Origin: Deltaproteobacteria bacterium
Lineage (GTDB): Bacteria; Desulfobacterota; Syntrophobacteria; BM002
NCBI GenBank assembly: GCA_020353215.1
Contig: CP070692.1
Span: forward strand, 168,900 to 207,711
DNA length: 38,812 nucleotides
Direction: 5' to 3'
The position numbers and the translations under genes are program-made. Of this stretch, positions 9,161-21,665 are shown in pieces. Within the stretch, counting starts at the first letter, position 1; each line of letters starts with the position of its first letter. Below the pieces are notes generated by a model. The model had not been told where the DNA came from. It saw nothing but the letters and a program-made list of their open reading frames with translations, and made no database searches.

Positions 9161-9274
9161 ATGGAAGATATCTGCAAATGTATGGTGGTTACCAGTGATG
9201 ACAGTGTCCTCTGCGTCCAAGACGACAAGTGCTGTGAAGAAGTGCGTAAGAACCTTCAACCCCTTGAATGTTGA
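9161..9274 (+). CDS. Small Cys-rich protein (37 aa)
   Basis: The ORF MEDICKCMVVTSDDSVLCVQ continues to 37 residues, with six Cys (positions 5, 7, 18, 24, 25, 37) and many acidic residues. A purine-rich AAAGGGGGGA lies about 5-13 bases before the ATG and a strong intrinsic terminator follows at 9317-9349, so the unit has the layout of a small gene. The Cys pattern suggests metal binding or disulfides. I do not recognise the family. A non-coding RNA ending at the same terminator is the main alternative. Confidence 0.5.
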   Translation: MEDICKCMVVTSDDSVLCVQDDKCCEEVRKNLQPLEC

Positions 9275-17460: not shown

Positions 17461-19926
17461 TCAGGAAACAGATCCCCAGACTCTAAAGGCTAGGACTGTC
17501 GCCAGCAAGTAGGAACCCACGGCGAGAGCCAGAACCGCCTGGAATCCCAGAGACATGGCCAGCAACACCGTGAGCGGGGCTGCGGCCACAGAGGCGAAGC
17601 CATTCAGGCCCCAGGCCCACGGCATCAAACCGGGTGACCACCGTTCCAAGAGCCTCATACCAGCCGGAAAGGGCCAGCCCATGAGAAAGGCAAGGGGGGC
17701 CAGAAGAATGAGGAGCACGACAAATCTACTCGCAGTGGTCCAGGTGGAGACAGGGCCGAGAAGCCACTTGCTCAGCAGAAAGACTAGGGGAGCAGAGAGA
17801 GCTATTCCCAGCCCTGCCAAAAAGATCGCCCAGGCGGGTTTATGTGTCCAGCGCTGAGCGTAAATACTTCCCAATCCCGCAAAGAAGAGGAAACCACTGA
17901 GTACTCCGGCAGCTGCAAGCAGCGGATCCCCCATGAGCAAGGTGAAACGCTGCATCAAGCTGATTTCAAGGGCCAAGAACGCAAAACCGAGCAAAAGGAA
18001 GTACACAAAAGCCCAGCCTCCCCCGGAGGGGGACCTTCTATGGCGAGCCCAAAGAAATAGAGGGAGCAGGAGCAGCACTACCGCCGCTGCCACAATTTGC
18101 ACCAGGGAGATCACCAGGACAACATAACCGAGTTCCAGGCGTTGGAACCAGTAATGACCATGACTTCTGATGAAACGCGGCAACGAACGCCAGCGGAAGA
18201 AGTCGAAGAAGTAAGGTCGGTCATCCGTGGCCGGGCGCACATTATAGGCCCAGTCCTTGAAGAAGCGTTCCCGGTTTGGAGAGAAGATTTCCCCGGCCGC
18301 CATCCGGTAGAAGGAGCCATTTTCCCCTGTTGATCCCATGAGGCGGTTGAAGGGTTCCCTGCTGTGGGGATCAAAACCGGGAAGAGTGTCGATGTCAAGC
18401 CAAAGCAAATCGCTGATCTGCACCACCTGTTGCACCCGTATCGGTTCGAAAGGTTTGCCAGCGCCCAAGGTGCAGACGGCCAGATGGTTTCGCAGCTGGG
18501 CGAGATGAGTGTCTGGTCTCTGGACGCCGATTCCTTCCAACGCTGCCACCAAAGTGGCGAGAATCTTGACGTTGTCTCTGGGGGGAGACTGCAGACCTCT
18601 GGTGATGGTTATCAGGCCTCTGGGCGTCAGGTGTTCCAGGCAGCGAACCATTCCTTCCACGGTGAGTAGATAATTCTCGTGCAATGACAAGAGGCTGCTC
18701 ACGCCGGCCGCCATTCCCTCGGCACCCACCACGTGAATAATGTCAAACCTGTCCTCGGAGTATTCGAGAAAGTGCCGCGGCGAGGCCGAATGGACCTCCA
18801 GGTCCTCGCCCTTGAGGCCCCGGTCTCCAATGTGGTCCAGAGGGCCCAGGAGTACATCCAACATCTGGGGGTTCTCTACAACCAGGGTTATCTTGCTCGC
18901 GCCGTAGCGCCGTGCCAACCACACATTCACCCCGCTTGTTTCACCTAGTAGCAAAACCCTGGCGTTGGGTAGAAGACGATAGGCAACCGACATGGGGGTG
19001 TGTTCCAGAATGGAAGCCCCGGCTGGATTGTCAATGTGCAACATGGGGCCTGCGCTTTCACCGTCGGCGAGCAGAAGTGACTGGGATGGGGGAGGGGTTG
19101 TGGCTGTAAGTCCGGCAAAAAGGGTATGGTGCAGCCGCGGGGAAGTGAAGACGTCAAGCCTCGCGCGCGGGCCATGGCGGGTAACCAGGTGACGGGCGTC
19201 TCCCTGCTTCTGCCAGCGCTGCAATTCTGCCAGCATCTTGTGAGGATCGGTGCGCATTGGCACAGGCAAAAAGATTGCCTCCGCAACAATGAGAAGACCC
19301 ACCAGAACGGATATTCCTGCAAATCGCCTAGCGCTTCTTCTGCCAGGAGCAGGAGGCCAGAGAAACACTGAGGTCCACACCAAGAACGCGGCACCCTGAA
19401 TCAGTCGGGCGGGTGGCAACCACATCATGAGCCCCACCGCAAGGATCGGACCGGTGCCACTGCCCAGGAGATTGGCCCCGTAGACCAGGTTAACCGAGGG
19501 GGCAAAGCGAATCAGGGTGAAACCGATGAGGATCCCTGCCACGAGAAAAGGCAGGAAGATCAGGGCCTGGTAGCAGGTGAGATAAAAAAGCTGCTGCCCG
19601 CTGAACAGGACATACCTCATCTGGAGTGGAAGAGACTCTGCCGAGCGGTAGCAAAGTGTAATGCTGACAGCGAGGATGAGAGTTAGACCACGGACCCAGG
19701 GGGAGAAGTGTGGTAGGAGTCGGGGAGTGAGCAGCCCGAGCCATGTTCCACTGGCGCCGAAGCCGAGCAGTGCCAGTCCGACCACGAGATAGGCGAAGTG
19801 GTGCCATCGAGAAATGGCCAGAGTCCGCATGAGGGCAAGTTCAAGCCCGAGCACCGCTGCAGAAATAATTGCCACAGCGGCCAGTTCTCGCAAACCGGGC
19901 TTGTCCGTCGGGGAAGAAGTGTCCAA
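17461..19926 (-). CDS. Polytopic membrane protein with spermidine-synthase-like central domain
   Basis: 821 residues. N-terminal TM bundle (about 12-225, six to seven helices; GLELALMRTLAISRWHHF motif), a soluble Rossmann-like middle (about 240-590), and a second TM bundle (about 610-815, six or seven helices). This layout is known in fused membrane/spermidine-synthase-like proteins. The nucleotide-binding loop VLLLGETSGVNVWLARR is degenerate compared with the usual GGGxG of polyamine synthases, though an acidic residue follows at the end of the next strand (VVEN). Polyamine synthesis is therefore doubtful; a transport or methyl/aminopropyl-transfer role is possible. Monocistronic as far as can be seen. 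Confidence 0.8.
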   Translation of the reverse strand: MDTSSPTDKPGLRELAAVAIISAAVLGLELALMRTLAISRWHHFAYLVVGLALLGFGASGTWLGLLTPRLLPHFSPWVRGLTLILAVSITLCYRSAESLPLQMRYVLFSGQQLFYLTCYQALIFLPFLVAGILIGFTLIRFAPSVNLVYGANLLGSGTGPILAVGLMMWLPPARLIQGAAFLVWTSVFLWPPAPGRRSARRFAGISVLVGLLIVAEAIFLPVPMRTDPHKMLAELQRWQKQGDARHLVTRHGPRARLDVFTSPRLHHTLFAGLTATTPPPSQSLLLADGESAGPMLHIDNPAGASILEHTPMSVAYRLLPNARVLLLGETSGVNVWLARRYGASKITLVVENPQMLDVLLGPLDHIGDRGLKGEDLEVHSASPRHFLEYSEDRFDIIHVVGAEGMAAGVSSLLSLHENYLLTVEGMVRCLEHLTPRGLITITRGLQSPPRDNVKILATLVAALEGIGVQRPDTHLAQLRNHLAVCTLGAGKPFEPIRVQQVVQISDLLWLDIDTLPGFDPHSREPFNRLMGSTGENGSFYRMAAGEIFSPNRERFFKDWAYNVRPATDDRPYFFDFFRWRSLPRFIRSHGHYWFQRLELGYVVLVISLVQIVAAAVVLLLLPLFLWARHRRSPSGGGWAFVYFLLLGFAFLALEISLMQRFTLLMGDPLLAAAGVLSGFLFFAGLGSIYAQRWTHKPAWAIFLAGLGIALSAPLVFLLSKWLLGPVSTWTTASRFVVLLILLAPLAFLMGWPFPAGMRLLERWSPGLMPWAWGLNGFASVAAAPLTVLLAMSLGFQAVLALAVGSYLLATVLAFRVWGSVS

Positions 19927-21044: not shown

Positions 21045-21198
21045 GCTATCAATCCCTTGCTATTTTGGATCACCACTACTGTAACGCGATATGTCTTCGA
21101 GTTCTTTGGATTAATCTTGTGGATAACATAACAGAGGGGTGACGAGAGGGTCAAGAAAATGGCGCACTAATCTATCAGCTCATATTTTCATCATTGAT

Positions 21199-21227
21199 TT
21201 GACTCATTCGCGTCCAATGGTTACGTT
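21199..21227 (+). promoter_or_regulatory. Possible sigma-70 promoter for the second small Cys-rich ORF
   Basis: TTGACT, 17 bases, TACGTT, about 33 bases before the ATG at 21260. Good -35 and spacing, weak -10. Confidence 0.35.
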
Positions 21228-21259
21228 ATTGAAACAACACTTTGAGAGGGGTGAAGAAG

Positions 21260-21394
21260 ATGGAAAGTGACCTTGGCTATACGCCGTTGTCCCATCAAGA
21301 GGAATGTGACTGCTGTTGCGGTTGCGACAGCTTTGCCGAAAGGGAGGACTATCCCAAGGATGAAGAGGGTAATCCCCTTTACCGGCCTTTTTAG
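21260..21394 (+). CDS. Small Cys-rich acidic protein (44 aa)
   Basis: MESDLGYTPLSHQEE is followed by the cluster CDCCCGC, then an acidic tail ending LYRPF. It contains five Cys within seven residues. GAGAGGGG lies about ten bases before the ATG. A GTG at 21251 would add three residues. A strong terminator follows 25 bases after the stop. The Cys cluster suggests metal or cofactor binding. The family is not recognised. Layout parallels the small ORF at 9161-9274. Confidence 0.6.
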   Translation: MESDLGYTPLSHQEECDCCCGCDSFAEREDYPKDEEGNPLYRPF

Positions 21395-21418
21395 AGCACA
21401 CTGGACTACAAATTAGAC

Positions 21419-21444
21419 AGGCCCGCTCAGGCGGGCCTTTTTTT
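21419..21444 (+). terminator. Rho-independent terminator
   Basis: An 8-bp perfect stem AGGCCCGC / GCGGGCCT with loop TCAG, then seven T (overlapping the stem end). It terminates the small Cys-rich gene. Confidence 0.93.
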
Positions 21445-21665
21445 GTGGTTGGGCATGGTAAGGTGTTGGCTTCATCCTTGCGGTGCCCAAATGCAGCGGA
21501 CCCGAGTAACTCTTTCCCGCTCCGCGGCGGACCTGGGAGCAGTCGTCGAGCTTCTCGGGTCCACAAAAATAGATTACTCTATTTTGGTTGTTAAGTCAAC
21601 AGAAAAATTCAGAGGGCTTTCCCTACTTCTTGTCACTCTTCTAGTCAAAGAGAAAAGAGCAATCT

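Follow-up and report, generated by a model that had tools for sequence, protein, structure and literature searches.

Bacterial metallothioneins of the SmtA type bind three to four Zn in a zinc-finger fold (PMC10612145), and MymT, the copper metallothionein of Mycobacterium tuberculosis, is a Cys-rich protein of 4.9 kDa encoded by a small, non-annotated ORF (PMC7558416). Metal-sensing upstream ORFs are also known, e.g. the copper-responsive CruR (DUF2946) at the head of an operon, with stalling at a RAPP motif (PMC9426467). The 44-residue microprotein described here, encoded in a window of 38,812 nucleotides (the whole stretch of DNA that was analysed), resembles each of these in part. With SmtA/BmtA it shares the small size, the high Cys content, the cytosolic location, a His beside the Cys and, presumably, the binding of soft metals by thiolates, but it has a single cluster of five Cys; no metallothionein profile of Pfam or NCBIfam matched it, nor did any solved metallothionein in the PDB. 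At 5.1 kDa it is similar to MymT, both being Cys-rich products of small unannotated ORFs, whereas its conserved acidic tail has no stated counterpart in MymT, from which it is set apart by description and not by alignment. The gene is, like cruR, a short conserved ORF with conserved Cys; unlike CruR, it is followed by a terminator, and in most relatives there is no co-directed target gene.

The gene lies at 21260-21394 (+) of the window and encodes MESDLGYTPLSHQEECDCCCGCDSFAEREDYPKDEEGNPLYRPF, in which the CDCCCGC cluster (residues 16-22) is followed by an acidic tail; the ORF is present just as a sequence-only reading of this DNA had stated. The product is strongly acidic (calculated pI 4.05, charge -9.4) and devoid of an N-terminal hydrophobic stretch. 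We take the ATG at 21260 as the start because a conserved ribosome-binding site (GAGGGGTG, 21246-21253, +; AGGAGGTG or AGGGGGTG in relatives) precedes it by 6-7 bases in all 13 genomes of the family, while an in-frame TTG at 21242 sits 5' of that site. An ORF of at least 25 codons with five Cys within seven residues appeared in one of 100 dinucleotide shuffles of the window and is hence rare by chance. Gene callers routinely miss proteins of fewer than 50 residues, and this one is the product of a real, previously unrecorded and independently transcribed gene; it is very acidic, probably cytosolic and of an undescribed family.

Analysis of the 13 sampled genomes of the family, which span four genera, reveals one confident copy of the gene in each (64-88% identity); a search of the source genome likewise gives a single confident copy. 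The sequence-only reading would have been refuted by a lack of conservation of the Cys cluster at the protein level, and this refutation fails, as all 13 genomes carry the protein. Of the columns of the protein alignment, 19 are invariant, including P9, L10, H12, C16, D17, C19, C20, G21, C22, D23, A26, P32, D34, E35, G37, P39, R42 and P43; C18 is replaced by Gly in one genome, that of the most distant member. Conservation extends through the last residues, and the C-terminal half is among the best-conserved parts. Synonymous sites have nearly reached saturation (mean pS 0.74, as against pN 0.11), and the numbers of variable first, second and third codon positions are 15, 11 and 41 among the 44 codons. 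The microprotein is therefore under strong purifying selection as a protein, as is found for genuine protein-coding genes. TGT and TGC alternate among the Cys codons, which indicates that the residue is kept rather than the DNA. The codon pattern and the conservation together rule out a chance open frame and bear out the description of the product as a Cys-rich microprotein. In the best cases, pairwise blastn comparisons with orthologous loci delimit a conserved block at 21196-21444, nearly identical to the unit of 21199-21444 proposed from the sequence alone, and the intergenic DNA beyond it is mostly unalignable between relatives.

Upstream of the gene, a -35 box (TTGACT, 21199-21204, +) and a -10-like box (TACGTT, 21222-21227, +) are embedded in a longer footprint, for which the aligned upstream regions of the orthologues give the consensus TTTGACT-N11-ARTGGTTA; in the window this gene-specific promoter reads TTTGACT-N11-AATGGTTA (21198-21227, +). 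The pattern TTTGACTN{9,12}ARTGGTTA occurs once each in ten of the 13 family genomes, always ahead of the microprotein gene, and the reversed control pattern gives one match in all 13 together; the promoter region is masked in genome G004 and shows small changes in G001 and G002. The conserved sequence extends past a simple -35/-10 pair and occurs just once in each of the ten genomes, which suggests that it may serve as an operator for a regulator. Downstream, a GC-rich hairpin, AGGCCCGC-loop-GCGGGCCT, with a T-run forms an intrinsic terminator (21419-21444, +), and a GC-rich hairpin followed by T is found at this position in all 13 genomes. The gene had been read as a stand-alone unit with promoter-like boxes, ribosome-binding site and terminator, and these signals are both found and conserved across genomes.

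Relatives were also sought outside the family. None of 43 other genomes of the class contained a match at an E-value of 0.01 or better, and in a sample of 395 genomes of the phylum (about 380 of them outside the family) a single weak match was detected beyond the family (G238, E=0.003 per genome); this match and the others outside the family, with E above 0.01, are at chance level. When 85,000 species genomes were scanned with a pattern, 11 loci came back, every one of them in a MAG labelled Desulfobacterota, Deltaproteobacteria, Syntrophobacterales or Desulfobacteraceae. The microprotein matched no family in Pfam, NCBIfam or PHROGs, a profile search of the PDB gave no chain up to E=10, the sole match among defence and PHROG families was PtuB at E=0.1, which we take as chance, and the literature yielded nothing that matches the CDCCCGC motif string or describes similar small proteins. 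An origin from phages or plasmids was rejected, as we found no credible relatives among phages, plasmids and viral contigs. Since no relative was recovered from the rest of the class, the rest of the phylum, the species-wide scan or the databases, the microprotein is, as judged by sequence comparison, new and restricted to its family.

The window encodes another Cys-rich microprotein at 9161-9274 (+), presumably the other unit meant by the earlier reading, which had noted the same gene design in both. This ORF of 37 codons (MEDICKCMVVTSDDSVLCVQDDKCCEEVRKNLQPLEC) likewise has its own ribosome-binding site and terminator and an acidic, Cys-rich product; unlike in the 44-residue protein, however, the Cys are spread out (C-x-C, C, CC and a C-terminal C), and there is no evident sequence relation between the two. 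It is conserved in six of the 13 family genomes, with six Cys invariant across those six, and elsewhere in the class only one weak partial match was found (E 0.002). At least two lineage-specific microproteins rich in Cys seem to be in use in this family.

Beyond the terminator of the 44-residue gene we found a putative convergent small-RNA gene of about 77 nt (21488-21564, -), comprising one long hairpin with GCTGC and a T-rich tail, preceded by a promoter at 21571-21599 (-) with TTGACT (21599-21594), a 17-nt spacer and TAATCT (21576-21571). The TTGAC and TA---T boxes are kept in the small-RNA loci of ten genomes, just ahead of the RNA start, and in most genomes the hairpin ends in a T-run, which in the source genome is interrupted. 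The element is present in 11 of the 13 family genomes (ten complete copies, and one, in G011, cut by the contig end); in G002 and G003 the microprotein is kept and the small RNA is not detectable. One member folds with z = -7.1 relative to shuffles, and across the ten sequences 95% of the cells are paired and four pairs are changed on both sides, as against a shuffle mean of 1.3, most of the variation falling in the inner helix; covariation support for the fold is moderate. According to a covariance model, the RNA is confined to the microprotein's family and occurs once per genome, a count that leaves aside weaker opposite-strand matches of the same place. We rejected a dispersed repeat element, as the RNA is single copy, and it scored above no Rfam family's gathering threshold. 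By sequence comparison, then, neither the microprotein nor the small RNA has a counterpart in known families. Wherever the RNA was found, its gene and that of the microprotein are arranged tail to tail; this holds also for G004 and G000, which lack the gene for PEPCK downstream, and for G006 and G007, despite a few hundred intervening bases.

The upstream neighbour of the microprotein gene is usually pcm, on the other strand. The downstream neighbour is, in the window, a lipoprotein gene in convergent orientation that encodes an Lcl_C domain, the gene for PEPCK in most relatives, mtaB in G002 and G003, and in G004 a co-directed nitroreductase gene some 270 bases away. In most relatives the flanking genes are on the opposite strand, so the microprotein gene does not belong to a conserved operon. 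Its neighbours are pcm, lipoprotein or PEPCK, nitroreductase, mtaB and mnmA genes; none of them is a gene for metal transport, sensing or resistance, which speaks against a metal-binding role. A gene for an 821-residue membrane protein (17461-19926, -), which many relatives also keep next to pcm, has no match in Pfam or NCBIfam at the thresholds used.

The best explanation, which we favour with moderate confidence, is a metal-binding Cys-cluster protein with its own promoter and a tail for a partner. Metal binding via the invariant Cys is, we infer, the most economical reading, and a metal-thiolate function is likely. For the metal-free chain, AlphaFold2 gave no confident fold (mean pLDDT 60), which would be expected for a protein folded by its metal, though it is not specific to such proteins. 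The metal-free microprotein would be mostly unfolded, and C16, C19, C20 and C22, together with C18 and possibly H12, would form a thiolate cluster that binds either a soft metal, for instance Zn(II) or Cu(I), or an Fe-S unit. Conservation of the tail (DYPKDEEGNPIYRPL) suggests that a partner protein may recognise this part. Most likely, the microprotein would serve as a small metal/thiol buffer or carrier whose own promoter switches it on under one specific condition. Overall, the microprotein represents a new family, ordinary in its size class, for which metal or thiol chemistry is plausible.

Five Cys in seven residues are tight for a single metal site within one chain, and the same residues would also fit a disulfide, persulfide or oligomeric role. 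The protein could instead be a thiol/persulfide (sulfur) carrier or a redox protein, possibly working for MnmA and MtaB, the enzymes of tRNA thiolation. In favour of this, mtaB and mnmA are no more than a few kb away in many relatives and adjoin the microprotein gene in the two outlying genera, and the lineage belongs to Desulfobacterota, many of which live on sulfur compounds. We consider this unlikely: these genes are on the opposite strand and not co-transcribed with the microprotein gene, their closeness may reflect inherited gene order, and mtaB is not nearby in the window or in the stretch read from G012. Far less probable is a regulatory leader peptide, in which the run of Cys codons would sense cysteine or a metal as in copper-responsive upstream ORFs; a short Cys-dense ORF followed by a terminator would suit it, but the entire protein, its last residues included, is conserved, and in most relatives the gene that follows is convergent, which leaves a leader without the target it needs; this reading is largely refuted. 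A precursor of a modified peptide (RiPP), to which the short, Cys-rich product might correspond, is equally remote, as nothing next to the gene codes for a dedicated maturase, protease or exporter, the neighbours are housekeeping genes (MtaB itself being a housekeeping radical-SAM enzyme), no NCBIfam or Pfam precursor family (e.g. SCIFF) matched, and the well-conserved C-terminal half is unlike a variable core.

It is also doubtful that the microprotein and the convergent RNA form a two-part module, in which the RNA controls, or is bound by, the microprotein or its mRNA. Both are family-restricted and single copy, and they are adjacent in 11 of the 13 genomes even where the flanks differ or extra DNA intervenes; shared ancestry of gene order could, however, explain this adjacency, G002 and G003 possess the microprotein with no detectable RNA, the protein, in contrast to most RNA binders, is acidic, and in nine genomes pairing between the RNA and the microprotein mRNA gave no consistent signal over shuffles. 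The more specific idea of a family-specific regulatory module, with the Cys cluster sensing metal or redox state and the small RNA as its regulator or target, we regard as slightly less probable still.

The metal-binding Cys-cluster protein remains our preferred reading, and the locus offers a compact system for testing how five clustered Cys may handle metal or sulfur; it also yields a previously unrecorded small-RNA gene, which together with the unique promoter raises its interest. The microprotein is kept by the whole sampled family under strong selection, and this retention, along with a promoter found once per genome, suggests a task tied to particular conditions in an uncultured lineage of Desulfobacterota.
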